Of a DNA stretch of 24,773 nucleotides, positions 11,676-21,019 are shown one piece after another. The first letter of the stretch is position 1. Each line of letters opens with the position of its first letter. The notes beneath the pieces were generated by a model that was given only the letters and a program-made list of their open reading frames with translations, was not told where the DNA came from and made no database searches. The position numbers were made by a program, and so were the translations under genes. The DNA is from Lachnospiraceae bacterium (GTDB taxonomy: Bacteria; Bacillota_A; Clostridia; Lachnospirales; Lachnospiraceae). The stretch is from assembly GCA_017620975.1 (NCBI GenBank), contig JAGAUD010000027.1, positions 1-24,773 of the forward strand, given 5' to 3'.

Positions 11676-12545
11676 CTATTCCGGCCAGTCCTGAATCAAG
11701 TCTGCAATTTCCTTAAGATCAATCTGTAAATCTCCGTTATAAAGCGCAAGACCTGCTTTTCCTTCCAGCGGATAGATGCAGGGCATATTCTCATTCACAA
11801 AATCATATACCATCAAAATCTTCTTCTCCGGGTCAATGATCCAATATTCTTTTACACCTGCCTCAGCATATTTCTGTAATTTTTTCGTATAATCCATCTT
11901 GCGTGTAGAGTTGGATACCACTTCCAGCACAAATTCAGGAGCTCCCATAATTCCCCAGCGCTTAATCTTATTCCTGTCACACGCAATAACCAAATCCGGC
12001 TGAATCATCGTTTTATCATCACAATCGAGGCGAACATCTACAGGGGCGATAGCAGGGATGCAATTACCGCCTTTTTTCTGAATATATGCATCCACATAGG
12101 AAAACATTTTGCCGGCTATCCTCTGATGTACAAATCCCGGGGCACTCATATCATAAATTACACCATCAATCAGCTCTGCCCTTCGTTCATCAGGTAATGT
12201 ATAATAGTCTGCTACTGTGTATTCTCCCTGACGTTTTCCTCTTTGAGCTCCATATGCATTCGCAGACTCTCTTACACACATCGTCTGTGTTGTCTTCTGC
12301 TTTTCTCCATCGCCATATGCAGCCGGCTTGTGCTCACTTTTGGCCGACACCGTGCCCCCTGAAGGAATCGTCTCCTCTCCGGCAAGTACTCTCTCAATTG
12401 CCTGACGAGTAGCGTAACGTGGGTAGGCAGTCTCCCCGGTAAATATTTTCTGCAGTGTACCCAACGGAACACCGCTATATTCAGACAACTGTGCCATCGT
12501 GTAGCCACGTTCCTGCTTAATTCGCTTCATTTCATCCAATGTCAT
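11676..12545 (-). CDS. XRE-type HTH fused to Uma2/DUF820 PD-(D/E)XK nuclease-like domain
   Basis: This is a 289-aa two-part protein. Residues 1-55 form a helix-turn-helix (MAQLSEYSGVPLGTLQKIF, 17-35). Residues 60-105 are a low-complexity linker, and the Uma2-family domain starts near GEYTVADYYTLP (108-119). Nuclease-fold landmarks are QPDLVIACD (Asp184), PEFVLEVVS (Glu208) and DYTKKLQKYAEAGVKEYWII (218-237), with lysines K221/K222 as the third position of the PD-(D/E)XK core. Uma2 proteins are very common in cyanobacteria and some Clostridia, and their biological role is not established. The fused HTH suggests binding to a specific DNA site, perhaps its own promoter, which carries direct and inverted repeats. 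AAGGAGGA lies 7 bases before the ATG. It is monocistronic as far as can be seen. Confidence 0.88.
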   Translation of the reverse strand: MTLDEMKRIKQERGYTMAQLSEYSGVPLGTLQKIFTGETAYPRYATRQAIERVLAGEETIPSGGTVSAKSEHKPAAYGDGEKQKTTQTMCVRESANAYGAQRGKRQGEYTVADYYTLPDERRAELIDGVIYDMSAPGFVHQRIAGKMFSYVDAYIQKKGGNCIPAIAPVDVRLDCDDKTMIQPDLVIACDRNKIKRWGIMGAPEFVLEVVSNSTRKMDYTKKLQKYAEAGVKEYWIIDPEKKILMVYDFVNENMPCIYPLEGKAGLALYNGDLQIDLKEIADLIQDWPE

Positions 12546-13262: not shown

Positions 13263-14647
13263 TTACATCAAGTCAGTTTCTGAACAGTAACGCGGGTACA
13301 CCTGAACCACGCTGTTGTTCTCAACAGAATAAACCGCATCATATAACTGCATATTTTTTTCGTTCAAATTATGTGTCACATGAAGAATCAGCCGGGTATC
13401 TTTTGCGATAATTCCCTCTTCCAGCTCCTTGGCCATTTGTTCATGCACAGAAGAAGTGAACTCGTCGAGTATCAAAATTTCACAATCCCTGTAAAGCGCC
13501 CTTGCGTAGGCGAGGCGCTTCTTCTCTCCGCCGGACAGCTCCCGAGCAGGCAGATGAAGTAAAGCATCCACATCTTTGCCGCCGCGACACATAGTCAGAT
13601 TGCTTCGGTTCAAGACCAGGGCCAGCTTACCGCGGTCCTCTTCGCTTCCTGCCAGAATATTCTCCTTCACGTTTTTATGGAAGATCATCGGAGACTGTGC
13701 CACATAGCCAACACGATGCAGAAGACTCGCCTTGCTGATATCGTCATAGAAAGTGTCGTTCCACTGTATGTGGCCTGCAATCGGTGTAAGCTGCTTTAAG
13801 ATCAGCCTGAGCAATGTGGTCTTGCCACTGCCGCTTTCACCAATGATTGCATATTTCTTTCCGGCAAAAAGCTCCATGGACACATGCTCCAGCACCATTT
13901 CTTCCCCATAGGCGCAGCTGACGTCCTGAAGAGAGATTTTATCCAGATCGGGTAACGGCGTGCCTCCTGACGTCCATACTTCTTTTCCCTCGATGCCCGC
14001 TCTTTCATATTCCTTAAAGCTTTGGCGAACTTCCGAAGCACTCCTTATTTGAGTCACGGTAGAGCCCAGCTCGCCGACAGGCCCCAAAGCGGAGGCGATC
14101 AATCGCTCGCCTTCATACTTTCTGTCTGAAGCCCGGCCAGCTTTTTCTGAAGGCCATGAGTCAGACCCATAAAAGCCGCAAACAATACCGCGCTGACCAG
14201 CGCAATGCGCCACTGCAGATACAACATTGCTCCAAAGGAAATTATGCTCACAGTACAATTTCGGATGAGCTGAAACAACGGCTCATAATAGGTGCTCTCC
14301 ATCACATCCACCTGGTGCTGGTGCCGTGAGAGCACTTCGCCAATCTGACTTTTTCGGTGTAGCACCTCGGATTGCCATATCAGCCCTTTAGAAAGACGCT
14401 CCTTCATTTGGATGCGAATATCCCGCATGGTTCTCGCACATACTTTTTTGCTGCACCAATAGATTACAAGATAAACCAGATAATAACCACATGCAAGCAG
14501 GCAAAAGTCCGAAAATCCAAGGTCTGCATTAGCGCCGGTTACCATATCAACTATCAGTTTCAACAGCCACGCGCAGCCCAGACCCAAAATCCCCTGCATG
14601 ACGCCCAGCATGATAGAAAACGTCACTTGAACGCGCATCCTTTTCAT
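13263..14647 (-). pseudogene. ABC half-transporter broken by internal deletion and frame change
   Basis: The reading frame from 14647 encodes 182 aa of an ABC-exporter membrane domain (about four hydrophobic helices) and stops at 14099 after LQTESMKASD. The rest continues in another frame from about 14100: LIASALGPVGELGSTVTQIR, the end of a membrane domain, then a full ATPase domain. That domain has GESGSGKTTLLR (Walker A), YVAQSP (Q-loop), ELSGGEKKRLAYARAL (signature), EILILDEF (Walker B) and HVTHN (H-loop). Alignment by eye with the partner at 14644-16191 suggests that about 80 codons (late helices TM4-TM5) are missing at the junction. The start is excellent: AGGAGGT 6 bases before an ATG that overlaps the partner stop as ATGA. 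It was therefore once the second half of a heterodimeric exporter. A product is unlikely to work. Confidence 0.8.
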
Positions 14648-16191
14648 ATCGCCACCTCCTGTATCCGCTTAGAACCGAGTTTTACATGAACATCATACTG
14701 CTCAGGGAAGTACGTTCTGTGAGCCACAGCGCACAGAGCCATTTGCGGATTCTCCGTCAAAAGCATTTCTTCGATTCTCTGCCCAAGCGCACTGTCCATA
14801 TTGGTCGTCAATTCATCTGCGATCAGCAGGTCCGGGTTCGTCAACAACGCCCGTGCCATCGCTACTCTTGTCCTTTGACCGCCGGACAGATTTGCACCGC
14901 CATCCTCGATCATCAAATCAAGAGGCAAAGATAATTCCAGCTTCTGCAAAAGTCCACAAAGTACACCGTCAGCCACGTTCTGATCAAACACTATGTTCTG
15001 GCGCAAAGTGCCTTGAAAAAGAAACGGCTCCTGGGGAACATATGCAATCCTGTCCGTAAATCGGGAAATACATCCCGTCTGACAGACCTTATGTCCCACC
15101 ATGAGTTCCAGAAACGTGCTTTTTCCGCTGCCGCTTTCGCCGGTGATCAGATGTTTTTCCCCTCTGCGGATGATCAGGCTCACGCCCTCCAGTAGTTGTG
15201 TCTCCGCTTCATATCGAAAGCACACATCCCGAACCTCCAACAGCACATCTCCCGCCTTTTGAGGCAGCGAATCAGACGGCGGCACTTCCTCCAGATACGC
15301 GTCTAACTCCTTTTTCAGCTGCTCTACGCCCTTGATTTTCACTCTAATCCGCGAAAGCATCGACCATTGATTCAGCGCCTGCACAGAGAGTTCAGCAGCA
15401 GAGACAAATATCCCCAGTCCCGTTCGGCCGCTATAGGCAAGTCCACCCCCGATGATCAAGATGAGGATATATATCAGCATGTTCTGACCAACACCAAGTG
15501 TCTCGATTCCCAACTGCGCCAGACGGTAATCGTACAGTGTCTTCTCCAATGATTTGTTGGCTTGAGAGAAATTTTCCTCCGCCAACGCCTCCATCCGGTT
15601 CAGGTGAATCTCCTCATAGCCCTCATGAAGTTCTGCCAGCGTATCGACAAACGCAGCTTTTTTCTCTTGCAGCTGCCGCTGCTTCTCCGTCAATTTTTTT
15701 CTTAAGAATCGAATCGCAACGCCAAAGCCCACCGCAGCCGCAGTAACCGCAAATCCGCATTGCAAGGAGATGACAAAAAGAGTCACAAACGTAGTGCCGA
15801 ATTGGATCATCAGCTTCATTCCATATAGACCTATGTAAAAATACTGATTCAGGACCGTATCCACCTCGCCTAAAAAGAACGATATGTGCTCCTCATCGCT
15901 TTTGATCCCATGGGACTGGGCAGACTGCCTCAAAAATGCCTTTGCAGCTCTTCTCTTTACCTCTGTGGAAAAAACAGCGTACGAGCGTCCGCGAATGTAT
16001 GATTCAAACAGTTCAAGGAAAATTGAAAGGGCAAGAGCCACTGCCGTCAGCAACGCCAGACAACCATTGACAGCTTCCTTCTCCAGGTCGCTGATCAGCC
16101 GCATCTGCATATACACAAATGCGCAGGAAACCAGCGCAGACAGGGCTTGTACGAACACAAGGCTTGCTGAAGTACGTCGGGTAAATTTCAT
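14644..16191 (-). CDS. ABC exporter half-transporter (membrane domain plus ATPase)
   Basis: This is a 515-aa fused exporter subunit. The membrane domain covers about residues 1-300, with hydrophobic helices near 8-28, 43-62, 118-160 and 230-255. The ATPase domain is complete: Walker A GESGSGKS (351-358), Q-loop Gln387, signature LSGGQ (435-439), Walker B ending Asp459-Glu460, and H-loop His491. It probably formed a heterodimer with the product of the now-broken downstream gene. The substrate is unknown; position next to a C39-like protein and a putative signal peptide suggests peptide export. No N-terminal C39 domain is fused to it. GGAGG lies within the last codons of the lipoprotein gene, which ends 4 bases upstream, so the genes are cotranscribed. 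The coding sequence is visibly more GC-rich than the genes upstream. Confidence 0.88.
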   Translation of the reverse strand: MKFTRRTSASLVFVQALSALVSCAFVYMQMRLISDLEKEAVNGCLALLTAVALALSIFLELFESYIRGRSYAVFSTEVKRRAAKAFLRQSAQSHGIKSDEEHISFFLGEVDTVLNQYFYIGLYGMKLMIQFGTTFVTLFVISLQCGFAVTAAAVGFGVAIRFLRKKLTEKQRQLQEKKAAFVDTLAELHEGYEEIHLNRMEALAEENFSQANKSLEKTLYDYRLAQLGIETLGVGQNMLIYILILIIGGGLAYSGRTGLGIFVSAAELSVQALNQWSMLSRIRVKIKGVEQLKKELDAYLEEVPPSDSLPQKAGDVLLEVRDVCFRYEAETQLLEGVSLIIRRGEKHLITGESGSGKSTFLELMVGHKVCQTGCISRFTDRIAYVPQEPFLFQGTLRQNIVFDQNVADGVLCGLLQKLELSLPLDLMIEDGGANLSGGQRTRVAMARALLTNPDLLIADELTTNMDSALGQRIEEMLLTENPQMALCAVAHRTYFPEQYDVHVKLGSKRIQEVAI

Positions 16192-16195
16192 TCAT

Positions 16196-17752
16196 TTATT
16201 CCTCCGCCTTAACATACAAAGCTCTCGGAACATCCTCTTTATAGACATTAAATGCTCCATAATAGCGTGTATTATCAAATACTTCCAAACACATATCATC
16301 ATTGGGTACAAAAAGCCAGAACTCTTCATGCTCACCGTCTGATAATTGAGGTAATTTTAAATTCATTTCTTCTGTATATTTGTCTGCATATTTCAAAGAA
16401 ACAACCACGCAGCCGTTACTTAATATTGTTTTTACGTAATAATCGTATGTAACACCGGGTGCCAATTTCATCCACAATTGTTCGAATAATATATGATAAT
16501 CATCGCACTCCATCAACTCTTCCACCGCTAATGTATCAATATCCTCAACTTTTATCCACTCCTTCGCACATTCCCCAGCGCTTGAACTATCCATGATCTG
16601 CCCAAGCAAATCATGACATGCTATTGTCTCAGCATCATTCTCGGGCAAGTCAAAAAATTCAATGAAACTCCCATTCTTTTCATACTTCTGTTCAGTTATA
16701 CTTGTTACTTCCGAATTAAACTTATATAATGTTTCCTCTTTGTCATCTTTTTCTTCTGCCATATTCTCTTGTGCAAACTCTTGAATGGAGTAGTCCATTA
16801 ACACTTTATAATCATCTTCCCTCACGCCTTCGTAATTCTTCACTATTTTGTAGCCCTCCGGAAAAGCACTTAACATCTCCGGTATGTTCACTCTAACCAT
16901 TTTATCATTCACTTTCTTAAAGAGAATAATTCGATTATTCAACGTTTGCAATGCAAACAGCTCCTCGTCCATGCATTCTATCCTGTAGATAGAATCATAT
17001 GAAGATACTTCCTCCAAATATAAAAAGTCATCTATATCAACCAGATACTCATTCACTATGTTCCCCTCTAAATTAAGTGAACAGATACTATAGCTATTCT
17101 CTCCTTCTCGCACTGAATTTTTAAATACGTAGATTAAATCATTATAAACATCAACGGTCGGAACAACTTCTCCTTCTTGCTTGTTGATATTATAGGAAAA
17201 GCTCCCGATTTTTGTTTTCTCATTATTGTTTACATTCAATTTCAATATTTCGTAGAAGTAGAATTCATCATTACCCTCTTCAATTAAATCCGGATAAAAA
17301 ATGAGCAGTTCTTCATCAGAAATTTTTTCAAGATAAGACATTGGAATATTAGTATACCAATTATGTATATCACACAAATTATTATCTATAGCATAATACA
17401 CCTTGTTAACAAGCTTATTATCTTGTTGACTGCACGTGGTAAATACAATCCCCTCATTCATTATAACTGCACTGTTTGTAGACATGTAAAAATCACTTAC
17501 TTCACCCAACTGTTTTATCTTACCACTTAACACATCATATTCATACAAAGTCAATGAATTAACACCTTGTTGTTCTTCTTCACAAATTTCATAAAAGATT
17601 ATCTTATTACGGGTATAAACTAACACAACCGCATCGTTATTGTTTTCAAGAATACTAATTACACTTGTTTCCTCTAAGTTGTCATTCCCCATGTTTGCAG
17701 AGCATGAGGACAATATAAAAATACTTATAAGTAATAATAATACCTTTTTCAT
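16196..17752 (-). CDS. Large lipoprotein of unknown function
   Basis: This is a 518-aa protein with a clear lipoprotein signal: MKK, a hydrophobic stretch (4-14) and the lipobox LSSC, with the lipidated cysteine at 17. The mature part is acidic and rich in N, E, D and Y, with many short hydrophobic strand-like segments such as NSYSICSLNLEGN and DSIYRIECMDEELFALQTLN. That pattern is compatible with a beta-propeller or WD-like fold, but I recognise no family. AGGAGGG lies 5 bases before the ATG. It precedes the ABC gene by 4 bases. A surface accessory or immunity role for the exporter is possible but unproven. Codon and base use are AT-rich compared with the downstream transporter genes. Confidence 0.8.
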   Translation of the reverse strand: MKKVLLLLISIFILSSCSANMGNDNLEETSVISILENNNDAVVLVYTRNKIIFYEICEEEQQGVNSLTLYEYDVLSGKIKQLGEVSDFYMSTNSAVIMNEGIVFTTCSQQDNKLVNKVYYAIDNNLCDIHNWYTNIPMSYLEKISDEELLIFYPDLIEEGNDEFYFYEILKLNVNNNEKTKIGSFSYNINKQEGEVVPTVDVYNDLIYVFKNSVREGENSYSICSLNLEGNIVNEYLVDIDDFLYLEEVSSYDSIYRIECMDEELFALQTLNNRIILFKKVNDKMVRVNIPEMLSAFPEGYKIVKNYEGVREDDYKVLMDYSIQEFAQENMAEEKDDKEETLYKFNSEVTSITEQKYEKNGSFIEFFDLPENDAETIACHDLLGQIMDSSSAGECAKEWIKVEDIDTLAVEELMECDDYHILFEQLWMKLAPGVTYDYYVKTILSNGCVVVSLKYADKYTEEMNLKLPQLSDGEHEEFWLFVPNDDMCLEVFDNTRYYGAFNVYKEDVPRALYVKAEE

Positions 17753-17851: not shown

Positions 17852-18193
17852 TTATTGATAATCTTTTTCATCAATATATACAGGATATGCTATATTTCCT
17901 TTTGTACGTCCACACTTTGAACATACTTGCTGGTATCCATTGTTGACCGGATCCACACAGACTACCTCCCATTCATGCGAGATATATTCTGTAGTCTTAT
18001 CTTCCAATACATAGCCACAATAGCATGAATACGTAACTGTTATTGTAGTAAGTTTGCAATAATCATCTGTAACTTCCGTGCTTTTCTCTTCTGTTATCAC
18101 AAATTCATGAAAATGTTCTTCCGCACATACATTCATCGTATTAATCAACGAAAAAGCAACAACCATAGCCAGTAATGTCTTTAAAACTCTCAT
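17852..18193 (-). CDS. Secreted cysteine-rich small protein
   Basis: This is a 113-aa protein with a Sec-type signal peptide (MRVLKTLLAMVVAFSLINTM), probably cut after Ala24. The mature part of about 89 residues has six cysteines: C46, C57 and C59 in SCYCG, C79, and C91 and C94 in CSKCGRTKG. The two CxC/CxxC knuckles resemble a zinc ribbon, or redox or disulfide pairs, although zinc ribbons are unusual outside the cell. I do not recognise a family. GAGGAG lies about 7 bases before the ATG. It follows the broken C39 gene by 41 bases and precedes the lipoprotein gene by about 100, apparently in one operon. It might be an effector, a substrate of the exporter, or an envelope factor. Confidence 0.75.
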   Translation of the reverse strand: MRVLKTLLAMVVAFSLINTMNVCAEEHFHEFVITEEKSTEVTDDYCKLTTITVTYSCYCGYVLEDKTTEYISHEWEVVCVDPVNNGYQQVCSKCGRTKGNIAYPVYIDEKDYQ

Positions 18194-18234: not shown

Positions 18235-18658
18235 TCACTTATAATACCCCAAATTTCTAGCCATTGTCGCATCATAAGCCTCTTGTGCTGTCACCCAATA
18301 CTTACCGAGTAACAGTTTGTTTTGCAGTTGCAGGCCCACAATAATAATTTGTTTCTTGCTGATAATACGGAACTCCAAGAACAGTCATCGTGATATTTGT
18401 ACTTCGAGCACTCGCAGTCTTAAACATTTTATTCCAAAACTTCTGACATTCTTCATCAGAAATATTAGGATCATTTAACATTTCCTGATATTGCTCTTCT
18501 GCAGTCTGTGGTTCGTCATTGGCATAGTCTCCACGAAATGAAACTTCCGCATCGCATTGTACGTTTTCCGCTGCATAAATATCACTGGCAAACAATAATA
18601 AACTAATCCCTACAGCACATAAAACAGACAGAGGTTTCTTAAGCTTTATTTTGTTCAT
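18235..18658 (-). pseudogene. Secreted C39-type (papain-like) peptidase with internal deletion
   Basis: The open frame from 18658 gives 118 aa: a signal peptide (hydrophobic 9-27, probable cut near Ala29-Ala30), a spacer, then LGVPYYQQETNYYCGPATAK (94-113). That is the start of a Peptidase_C39_2-like domain with the catalytic Cys107. It stops four residues later at 18302. In another frame directly after, GKYWVTAQEAYDATMARNLG leads to a stop at 18235. Ends of this kind (YWVTAQ-x-x-Y-x-A) are typical C-termini of such peptidases. The part between, with the catalytic His and Asp (roughly 100 codons), is missing. The ribosome site (AAGGAG) and signal peptide are intact, so decay appears recent. 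It is the first gene of the operon divergent from the peptide gene. Confidence 0.7.
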
Positions 18659-18738
18659 ATTATTCTCCTTTCACTCCCATTAGATGATTGATTTTACGCA
18701 AAAAATAACTCACCACCAAAGTACACAGTAAGTATAAC

Positions 18739-18767
18739 TATATACTTTAAACTTGCAGCTTAACCAA
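18739..18767 (-). promoter_or_regulatory. Possible promoter of the C39/lipoprotein/ABC operon
   Basis: On the minus strand, TTGGTT and TATATA are 17 bases apart. A TATAGT lies 2 bases further on. The -35 box overlaps the end of the perfect palindrome CAAAAGATCTTTTG. The leader to the start codon at 18658 would be about 75 bases. Matches are partial. Confidence 0.35.
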
Positions 18768-18778
18768 AAGATCTTTTG
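18765..18778. promoter_or_regulatory. 14-bp perfect palindrome, candidate operator
   Basis: CAAAAGATCTTTTG reads the same on both strands. It overlaps the likely -35 box of the divergent C39-led operon, a typical site for a dimeric repressor. Confidence 0.45.
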
Positions 18779-18810
18779 TGCTTTAACTTTAACCTCTATT
18801 CTCTTCCTCC

Positions 18811-18867
18811 GCAACACCCAAAACTGTCAAAAACGGCGCTTCAAAAATTGACAACTTTGGGCATTGC
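18811..18867. promoter_or_regulatory. Long inverted repeat, candidate operator of the peptide-regulator system
   Basis: Left arm GCAACACCCAAAACTGTCAA (18811-18830) and right arm TTGACAACTTTGGGCATTGC (18848-18867) are inverted copies matching at 16 of 20 positions, with identical blocks GCAA, CCCAAA and TGTCAA. They are separated by 17 bases, with centres 37 bases apart. The right arm overlaps the -35 box of the peptide gene by 4 bases. Placement just upstream of and touching -35 is usual for an activator site. The most likely ligand is the adjacent double-HTH regulator, an inference. Confidence 0.6.
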
Positions 18868-18891
18868 ATAAATTCTCGATACCTTTATAAT
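18864..18891 (+). promoter_or_regulatory. Promoter of the small peptide gene
   Basis: TTGCAT and a perfect TATAAT are separated by 16 bases, 29 bases before the start codon. The weak -35 box together with the inverted arms just upstream suggests activator dependence. Confidence 0.55.
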
Positions 18892-18920
18892 CGAATTCAT
18901 CATAAGAAAGGGGATTATCC

Positions 18921-19067
18921 ATGATGAAAAAAATTTTCAAAACGTTCCTTGCAGCTAATTTAAGTCTCTTTATCGCACTGTCATTGTTTATTACACCTAT
19001 CCAGGATAACCATTATCCTCTCCAACCATTAAATGACTTAATTGGACAGAACAAGGGCACAAATTAG
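18921..19067 (+). CDS. Putative secreted pheromone precursor, 48 aa
   Basis: A short ORF of 48 codons. It starts MMKKIFKTFLAANLSLFIAL, a basic start followed by a hydrophobic core (about 9-24), and ends in a polar tail containing DNHYPLQPLNDLIGQNKGTN. This is the form of an exported signalling peptide of the RRNPP type, where the Sec-secreted precursor is trimmed to a short C-terminal peptide that re-enters and binds a TPR regulator. Support comes from AAGGGG about 7 bases before the ATG, a good TATAAT promoter, the upstream inverted repeat, and a stop that overlaps the convergent TPR-type regulator by 4 bases. A second ATG at 18924 is an alternative start. No cysteine is present, so an AgrD-like thiolactone is unlikely. 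Function is inferred from form and context. Confidence 0.65.
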   Translation: MMKKIFKTFLAANLSLFIALSLFITPIQDNHYPLQPLNDLIGQNKGTN

Positions 19068-20893
19068 TGCTCTGACAACTTATCTTCAAGAATTGCCTCT
19101 AAATTGTAACATTTAGCCATATGAAAAAGCAGCGCGCTTTTTCTTACCTCCGCCCTCCATACCTTGTCATCATAATCTACAGAGCTCTGTGCTTTATAAT
19201 TATACGCCATATTATATATACCGTCCGCAATATTACCGAATCGTCTTACAAGTGCATTCTCTCGGATAATCCTTCGGGAGATTGCATTTGACTCTTCATA
19301 ATCCCCCATATTCCCCAGTACACTTGCTATATGTGCCATGATGAATTCATACATGCTAATATTCTGAGCAATTTTATCTGATTTTTCATACTGCTTACAA
19401 ATCTTCCTCAATATTTCATGATACATGTTTATTTGCTCTGTACCTTGCACAAATGCCATATTTATTAAACACGTCATTTCACCTATTGTTATAAATAAAT
19501 CAATATCGTTCTTTATAATCTTTAATGGCACTGTACATGCTAAAGCCTCACTAAGTCCACCCATCACCATATCTCTGGAAAGTTCACCGCAGTTATACAT
19601 TAAAAGCAAACGCGATTCTTCTATATACTGCCGATTAATAGGTTCCTCCATAGAAATCATCCCTTCAAGCGTTTCCAGAGCTTGCTTTTCCTTCTCATAA
19701 TCCCTATTGTATCCATAAGTCGCAATATCTCTCACCAGTCGCAATGCTTCCGGATTGGATGTTATAATATCCACCCTCTGGTATTCTCCCGACATACCAA
19801 GTCTTGCCAGCACTTCCCTTGCAATCGGCAACTGCATCTTACCGTCCGTCAACTCTACTCTGACAATTGTCTTCTCCGAACATATCCCATCGCACAATTC
19901 TTTTCGGGTCATGCCAAGCATCATTCTACGCTTATAAATCATTTCGTTGATACAAAACGTATTTTTTTGCAGATACAAATAGCAGTTATTTCGCATAGCC
20001 GGGCGCATACCGCAATCTTTATACATCTCTTCGAGCGTCTGTATCCATAACGCGTTTTCTTCCTGCATTTGAGAAAAAGCCTCCAGCTGCTTTTGTTCTC
20101 CTGCCTCTTGCGCCTGTTGTACAAAATGCTCATATAGCTTTTCCCGCTCCAACAATAATTCCCAGAAATAATACAACCGCTGCGTGTTCCTCAGACACTC
20201 AATTGCTTTATTACAGTTCTTTAAAAGCATGCTCCAATCCGAAACTTCCTTTGCAAGACTCACCATGCACTGATAGTATACTATTTTAGGAATAATCTTT
20301 GCTTGTATGTATTCGTCCTCAATAGAACGCTTTATATATTCCAACAATTCGAGACTGCATTGTAATAAATATTCCGGATGGCTGTAGCGCACATAATCTA
20401 ACACCAGATCTATTTCCTGCTCGGATAATATCAGTTCATGCAACGGTTTTGTATCAATATTCGGAACCGTTAACTTCAAAGCTCTCTCTATCATTTCCTT
20501 AACAGAATCCCCCCCGCAACCTTTCCCTGTCAAAATCTGAGTCTCCATAACCAGACAAAACTGCTGTTCTAAATTGTTTTTCATGGATACTCTGCTTTTA
20601 TATTTTTGCAGAAGCTCCTCTGCCTGTTCAAACTGCTCTCGATTGATGCAATTTAATATTTGTTGCCGAAGCTTCCATTTTTCATATTCATCCCGAAACA
20701 GAAAGCTTTCATTTCTCGTATCAGACAACCCCAATCGCTGCATTAAACGCTCTCTTAATAACTTATCCGCACTTCGCTCCCCGTTGCAAATTCTGGTAAA
20801 CATACTTTGCGAACAGAGTCCTTCACATAACGCCTCTATCAATACACCTCTTTTTTTCGTTTGTGCTTTCAATAAATCAGCAAATTCATTCAT
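19064..20893 (-). CDS. RRNPP-like regulator with two tandem HTH + helical-repeat modules
   Basis: This is a 609-aa cytosolic protein. Residues 1-58 form a degenerate XRE-type HTH (LIEALCEGLCSQSMFTRICN, 18-37), followed to about 300 by helix pairs of TPR type (for example REQFEQAEELLQKY, 86-99). Residues 312-370 hold a second HTH-like segment (GMTRKELCDGICSEKTIVRV, 327-346) followed by another helical-repeat region to the end. The modules look homologous: both have C-[ED]-G-[LI]-C-S in the HTH, an R-L-G-[LM]-S at the HTH end, and a TVP block at 142-144 and 454-456. RRNPP regulators are normally about 280-320 aa, so this looks like a duplicated, fused dimer. GGGG lies about 11 bases before the ATG. 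The convergent 48-codon peptide gene is its probable ligand source. Confidence 0.8.
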   Translation of the reverse strand: MNEFADLLKAQTKKRGVLIEALCEGLCSQSMFTRICNGERSADKLLRERLMQRLGLSDTRNESFLFRDEYEKWKLRQQILNCINREQFEQAEELLQKYKSRVSMKNNLEQQFCLVMETQILTGKGCGGDSVKEMIERALKLTVPNIDTKPLHELILSEQEIDLVLDYVRYSHPEYLLQCSLELLEYIKRSIEDEYIQAKIIPKIVYYQCMVSLAKEVSDWSMLLKNCNKAIECLRNTQRLYYFWELLLEREKLYEHFVQQAQEAGEQKQLEAFSQMQEENALWIQTLEEMYKDCGMRPAMRNNCYLYLQKNTFCINEMIYKRRMMLGMTRKELCDGICSEKTIVRVELTDGKMQLPIAREVLARLGMSGEYQRVDIITSNPEALRLVRDIATYGYNRDYEKEKQALETLEGMISMEEPINRQYIEESRLLLMYNCGELSRDMVMGGLSEALACTVPLKIIKNDIDLFITIGEMTCLINMAFVQGTEQINMYHEILRKICKQYEKSDKIAQNISMYEFIMAHIASVLGNMGDYEESNAISRRIIRENALVRRFGNIADGIYNMAYNYKAQSSVDYDDKVWRAEVRKSALLFHMAKCYNLEAILEDKLSEH

Positions 20894-20977: not shown

Positions 20978-21019
20978 ATGACGAAACAGTTCAGTCCCCT
21001 GTCTGAACTGTTTCGTCAT
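20978..21019 (-). terminator. Terminator hairpin after metA
   Basis: ATGACGAAACAGTTCAG (20978-20994) pairs perfectly with CTGAACTGTTTCGTCAT (21003-21019), a 17-bp stem with an 8-base loop, 26 bases after the metA stop. The T-run on the minus strand is weak (ATATCTATTTT), so efficiency is uncertain. It also separates the metA operon from the regulator gene. Confidence 0.75.

Follow-up and report, generated by a model that had tools for sequence, protein, structure and literature searches.

The window analysed here (the whole stretch of 24,773 nucleotides, contig JAGAUD010000027.1 of assembly GCA_017620975.1) comes from a Lachnospiraceae bacterium, probably a gut bacterium. At 18921–19067 on the plus strand lies a small gene whose 48-residue product, MMKKIFKTFLAANLSLFIALSLFITPIQDNHYPLQPLNDLIGQNKGTN, is a candidate pheromone precursor with a basic N-terminus, a hydrophobic core and a polar tail containing a P-L-x-D core. 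This gene converges on that of a 609-residue double-module HTH/TPR-like regulator (19064–20893, minus strand), the candidate receptor, and shares 4 bases with its 3′ end. Both ORFs are present as described in the first-pass annotation, which had singled out a 48-codon signal-peptide ORF convergent with, and overlapping by 4 bases, a 609-residue regulator. The signal form of this and of all other peptides considered below was judged by a simple rule (a charged N-terminus plus a hydrophobic core) rather than by SignalP, and no obvious AxA cleavage site is seen in the window peptide. Seven protein homologues are 61–70% identical to the window peptide; residues P36, L37 and D39 do not vary among them, nor does most of the signal stretch to any great extent, and the second ATG of the window ORF (18924) fits these sequences better as a start.

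Upstream of the small gene, on the plus strand, are (i) a ribosome-binding site, AAAGGGG, ahead of the ATG (18907–18913); (ii) a −10 hexamer, TATAAT (18886–18891); and (iii) 16 bp before the latter, a weak −35 hexamer, TTGCAT (18864–18869), which has three of the six consensus bases and for this reason was missing from the promoter scan list. A dyad forms the candidate operator: its left arm, GCAACACCCAAAACTGTCAA (18811–18830), and its right arm, TTGACAACTTTGGGCATTGC (18848–18867), which overlaps the −35 hexamer, are each 20 bp long, are separated by a 17-bp spacer and are complementary at 16 of 20 positions. Thus, the TATAAT box, the ribosome site and the dyad at the −35 box reported at first pass are all there, although the −35 is weak and the dyad imperfect. 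The placement of an operator arm over a weak −35 would suit an activator or a repressor alike. A terminator was considered in place of the operator and rejected, as a scan of 18640–19080 found none; a terminator-like hairpin occurs at 20978–21019, upstream of the regulator.

The regulator consists of two receptor-type modules, each made of an HTH followed by helical repeats: module 1 (residues 1–312; 19958–20893, minus strand), which is Rgg/PlcR-like, and module 2 (residues 313–609; 19067–19957, minus strand), which is PlcR-like. The two modules are homologous to each other (hhalign probability 99.6). In profile comparisons, module 2 matched PlcR across the HTH and the repeats (E 1.3e-6), and module 1 matched Rgg3 and Rgg2 (E 5.6e-4 to 0.003) over about 100 N-terminal residues only, i.e. 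the HTH and the first repeats; a single-sequence search of the PDB with the regulator gave nothing useful. The AlphaFold2 model reached a pLDDT of 91.7 for the whole regulator and 93.7 for module 1. Foldseek placed PlcR, PlcR–PapR and ComR on top for the whole model, and PlcR and ComR, with Rgg lower down, for module 1 alone, Rap and NprR being structural matches of this module too; note that unrelated TPR proteins rank in these fold searches too. Pfam detected no TPR in the 609-residue protein, because its repeats are degenerate, and HTH_31 stayed below the cut-off in the window regulator; HTH_3 is detected in many relatives. Judged from profiles and predicted fold, both halves of the regulator resemble the pheromone receptors PlcR, ComR and Rgg, in line with the TPR-type receptor logic proposed initially. 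The remark that the receptor is twice the usual size also stands, and the whole family shares the double size, full-length relatives (chosen at 560 residues or more) measuring 572–703 residues. At four loci (L136, L142, L146 and L147), the two modules are separate, overlapping ORFs and the convergent peptide gene still lies after them. In a fifth split receptor (L138), the second ORF has no convincing start and no peptide was found. The regulators of L049, L052 and L113 are broken by stops.

The gene pair is conserved among relatives. A protein search with the regulator returned 52 proteins, including one identical sequence. Scanning genomes for relatives of the regulator yielded 28 loci; the titles of their records name Lachnospiraceae, except for one that names Acetatifactor. 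At an E-value of 1e-60 or better, whole-genome searches gave matches in three overlapping sets: a family (17 of its 397 genomes) and two genera (15 of 38 genomes and 23 of 101). The non-redundant set of full-length regulators (560 residues or more, 100 bits or more) had 102 members, of which five with less than 300 bp of 3′ flank were removed, leaving 97. Under a strict test (an ORF of 30–80 codons with an ATG start, a Shine–Dalgarno match of at least 4 bases, a charged N-terminus and a hydrophobic core, ending between −70 and +60 relative to the stop of the regulator gene), a convergent signal-peptide ORF was found at 64 of the 97 regulator 3′ ends and a same-strand one at none. At 413 other gene ends from the same loci (ORFs of at least 200 residues), the same test found no convergent ORF and one same-strand ORF (64/97 versus 0/413, Fisher p=3.6e-57); regulator-like ORFs are excluded from this control, 17 matches in an earlier version of it having all belonged to regulators outside the de-duplicated list. 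With looser criteria applied equally to regulators and controls (ATG or GTG start, 30–100 residues, a weaker hydrophobic core, −120 to +300), convergent ORFs were found at 78 of 97 regulators versus 9 of 413 control ends, and same-strand ORFs at 5 of 97 versus 11 of 413. The small signal-peptide ORF that the earlier reading had suggested looking for beside related regulators is therefore common, and its tail is conserved (see below). The most frequent offset is the 4-bp overlap seen in the window (23 of the 64 strict cases), followed by a 10-bp overlap (10 cases), and the distance between the stops of the peptide and regulator genes spans −101 to +279 bp.

Nineteen of the 97 regulators have no recognizable peptide ORF even under the looser criteria. 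One of them, L106, keeps paired operator half-sites about 240–290 bp past the regulator end (G495:C197:22808-22856), so that its peptide may have escaped the criteria. Genomes can hold several pairs with different tails, namely five in G003 and four each in G001, G438 and G495, the maximum being five, which fits private channels. At three loci (L028, 3483–7670; L048, 1498–4953; L021, 951–4202), two family regulators, or parts of one, stand in tandem, perhaps owing to duplication of the whole system. An origin from a mobile element was also considered and rejected: no relatives were found in viral contigs or plasmids, nor any nucleotide match in phages. Distant or partial relatives of the regulator, weak and 23–25% identical, do occur on three unannotated contigs from human faeces labeled 'Bacteriophage sp.' (MT837704.1, MT837868.1 and MT836677.1).

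The dyad is also conserved. We searched the 220 bp preceding the ATG of each peptide gene for inverted repeats scoring at least 20, leaving out 3 of 76 pairs on account of short sequence, and found one before 44 of 73 peptide genes. The comparison sets gave 1 in 365 for dinucleotide shuffles, 21 in 347 for the upstream regions of other ORFs and 13 in 71 for those of the regulators. The other 29 peptide genes have no dyad above the score cut; the window dyad itself scores below it but matches its sequence group. Arms can be aligned over much of the family, reading CAAGGGACAGAGTTGTCAAA in one large group and CAATGCCCAGAGTTGTCC in the group of the window, and distant branches carry other arm sequences. 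In nine genomes, the half-site GACAACTCTGTCCC (at most one mismatch) gave 39 matches versus 15 for the reversed pattern. Ten half-site pairs stand out in these nine genomes: seven belong to regulator loci, and the other three lie away from them, in three genomes. A tenth genome (G002) has pairs of its own variant at two peptide loci only, among 11 matches. In G006, one extra pair sits upstream of an ABC-transporter gene, and another site, whose second arm is imperfect, precedes a gene for a 218-residue protein near the same locus, as would be expected of a small regulon. Two orphan operator pairs (L153, 2110–2162; L154, 5425–5478) have no clear target and no family regulator beside them in the stretch examined; they possibly mark remote targets. 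Finally, the split two-gene loci keep arms of 15–22 bp, which fits, but does not prove, a tie between the possession of two HTHs and long arms.

Divergent from the peptide gene, an operon on the minus strand starts at 18658. It comprises genes for a secreted protein of 118 residues (18302–18658), a secreted protein of 113 residues with no assigned function (17852–18193), a lipoprotein-like protein of 518 residues (16196–17752) and an ABC half-exporter with a membrane domain and an ATPase (14644–16191), followed by a second half-exporter whose membrane part (14099–14647) and ATPase part (13263–14258) are encoded separately. This second half-exporter (13263–14647) takes up two ORFs that overlap and are read in different frames. 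The first-pass annotation had proposed an effector operon with a protease-like protein, secreted proteins and an ABC exporter: the secreted and ABC genes are present, whereas the protease amounts to a cut-short C39-like stretch, as the 118-residue protein stops about 24 residues into a weak match to C39 peptidases and so looks like a remnant rather than a working protease. Farther along the same strand, 11676–12545 encodes an XRE-type HTH fused to a putative endonuclease domain of the Uma2 type.

At the related loci, the first genes past the peptide gene look secreted or membrane-bound in 20 of 44 cases (by a crude rule). Pfam was run on 100 of the 149 proteins in the first three positions past the peptide gene, covering 43 of the 44 loci and omitting mostly long proteins. 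It assigned Radical_SAM to 11 of the 100, SBP_bac_1 to 7, and ABC_tran, ABC_membrane and FtsX to 4 each; we give these as counts and claim no enrichment. The radical-SAM proteins inspected are peptide-maturase-like, below the curated cut-offs of those models. The cargo therefore differs from locus to locus, whereas the pair is constant. Of the 53 loci whose sequence reaches far enough, 9 show no operon past the peptide gene by a simple rule. Locus L152 (3940–17814) combines the pair with two radical-SAM genes, a carrier-protein-like ORF, an ABC exporter and a set of three operator sites, of which one has an imperfect arm. These neighbors raise the question of whether the small protein is itself the secreted product, a bacteriocin or the precursor of a modified peptide, made under the control of the regulator and then matured and exported by the adjoining radical-SAM and ABC gene products. 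The 11 radical-SAM domains among the 100 sampled neighbors and the ABC exporters past the peptide gene would fit such a role. However, of the 43 loci sampled, no more than 11 can have a radical-SAM gene among the neighbors scanned, and the window has none, yet the form of the peptide is kept. The L152 operon carries a separate precursor-like ORF, 55 residues long and Cys-rich. Typical leader peptides have no Sec-like signals, unlike the peptides found here, and the regulators resemble the receptors PlcR and Rgg. We therefore regard a secreted product as an improbable role for the small protein.

The related peptides are under constraint. Precursors of relatives are 43–79 residues long (within the 30–80 searched), with polar and often acidic tails. 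In a set of 20 peptides that includes that of the window, conservation of P36 and D39 is 90% or higher. In all 71 pairs of related peptides tested (45–97% identity; 74 pairs were aligned), pN was lower than pS (mean 0.23 versus 0.62), a result to be read as one consistent sign and not as 71 tests because the pairs share branches; the window peptide, for which the loci offer no near relative at the DNA level, is in none of these pairs. For the tail alone, pN was 0.29 and pS 0.66. Codon-level conservation, whose absence together with that of transcription the first reading of the locus would have taken as a refutation, is thus seen in the relatives. Together with the count of 0 in 413 control ends, it rules out a chance ORF. 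The motif [IVA][SATQ][PTVL]xx[DEN], written after inspection of the tails, is found in 42 of 76 tails; among shuffled tails it occurs 4.5 times on average and at most 11 times. Regulator distance and tail distance are correlated (r 0.66), although co-inheritance alone would give such a correlation. Note that one locus (L053), whose true ORF overlaps the regulator stop by 4 bp, entered the dyad count, the codon test and the arm alignment as a wrong ORF 247 bp off; it was corrected for the motif analysis and omitted from the distance correlation. In one branch (L003, L007, L010, L011, L014, L020 and L008), the last residues of the peptides have the form hydrophobic-x-aromatic or hydrophobic-x-Ile (GFEY, EIEF, DFHF, DIYI), endings that recall the C-terminus of PapR, LPFEF.

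Constraint on the tail also bears on whether the pair could be of a toxin–antitoxin kind, in which a small membrane-active peptide would be restrained by the HTH protein and by the antisense overlap. A short hydrophobic peptide, overlapping convergent transcription and an XRE-type HTH would all suit such a pair. But protein-level conservation extends to the polar tail and is not confined to the hydrophobic part, the repeat domains match those of receptors that bind peptides, and antisense control would hardly allow stop-to-stop distances that range from −101 to +279 bp. This explanation seems to us highly improbable.

Comparison with known systems places the pair near the RRNPP group, the nearest analogue being an RRNPP pair whose receptor governs both its own peptide gene and an adjacent operon. 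PlcR–PapR of the Bacillus cereus group shares the HTH plus TPR receptor fold, PlcR being the best Foldseek match of both the whole model and module 1, and the PlcR operator is a dyad as well. PlcR, however, is a single module of about 285 residues (284 in 2qfc), whereas two modules are fused here, and papR lies on the same strand as plcR, whereas the strict test gave only convergent peptide genes. Rap–Phr and NprR–NprX of Bacillus likewise use a Sec-like precursor with a tail peptide. The rap and phr genes are on the same strand, unlike the convergent peptide genes described here, and the Phr_nterm model matched just 2 of 20 peptides, that of the window falling below the cut-off. The gene arrangement is shared with the streptococcal Rgg–SHP Group III systems, in which the peptide gene is convergent with, and overlaps, the receptor 3′ end (PMC13361665); a convergent overlap, most commonly of 4 bp, is typical here too. 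According to the same paper, another Rgg, Rgg1358, controls an operon for a radical-SAM peptide. In contrast to SHPs, which are short and hydrophobic and are exported by PptAB (PMC10075063), the peptides described here are longer Sec-like precursors with polar tails, associated with 20-bp arms, a double-length receptor and another host group. RRNPP-type pairs also occur in bacteria of a related class, as the QssR systems of solvent-producing Clostridium (PMC7376267 and PMC7206700).

Altogether, we think that the two genes probably form an RRNPP-type peptide quorum-sensing pair with a fused double-module receptor, a reading to which we give a probability of roughly 0.85. What the analysis shows is the conservation of both the gene pair and the dyad, the constraint seen in related peptides and the presence of two modules of receptor type in the regulator. 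We infer export, maturation, binding, the sign of the regulation and the target genes along the following lines. The signal sequence of the precursor would direct its export, and trimming would leave a short peptide from the tail, around YPLQPLNDL, which would re-enter the cell via an oligopeptide permease and bind the helical-repeat domain of the 609-residue regulator. The two HTHs of one regulator chain would read one 20-bp arm of the 18811–18867 operator, two chains filling both arms. Once the peptide is bound, the weak promoter of the peptide gene itself would be switched, resulting in autoinduction, and so would the divergent operon for secreted proteins and ABC export. OppA-type binding proteins, present in six of six genomes tested, belong to a common family that is also found in 11 of 14 control genomes, and are a precondition for re-import only. 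That the peptide acts only within the producing cell or at its membrane, with neither export nor re-import, would agree with the lack of an identified cleavage site in the window peptide, but is very unlikely given the charged N-terminus, hydrophobic core and polar tail of the peptides found (the first two being search criteria) and the presence of peptide permeases.

A bolder proposal, which we consider possible but somewhat less than an even bet, is that such quorum-sensing pairs make up a separate class. Each HTH would read half an arm, so that a dimer would place four HTHs on an operator of about 57 bp, and the two pockets may bind two peptides, or two copies of one, the receptor acting as an AND gate or as a built-in dimer. 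Gut Lachnospiraceae would in this way run up to five private channels per genome, timing operons for modified peptides and export.

Such a family could have gone unnoticed. By default, RRNPP_detector retains receptors of 250–500 residues, a range set from validated receptors of 285–473 residues (PMC10075063). The 609-residue regulator fails this length signature, each module of about 300 residues would pass it alone, and a double-length receptor family would therefore be skipped. A term search of the main text of this paper and of two other surveys, PMC9765709 and PMC12700828, found no word starting with 'Lachnospir', and a literature search for Lachnospiraceae peptide–receptor pairs or tandem-HTH receptors found none by title or beginning of the abstract, subscription papers and preprints aside. 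As the pair recurs in related bacteria, it may represent an overlooked bacterial chemical language. If the proposed function is true, the family would provide many predicted peptide–receptor–operator triples testable with synthetic peptides, a fused double receptor that occurs naturally, and a means of approaching the timing of radical-SAM modified peptides in gut bacteria.
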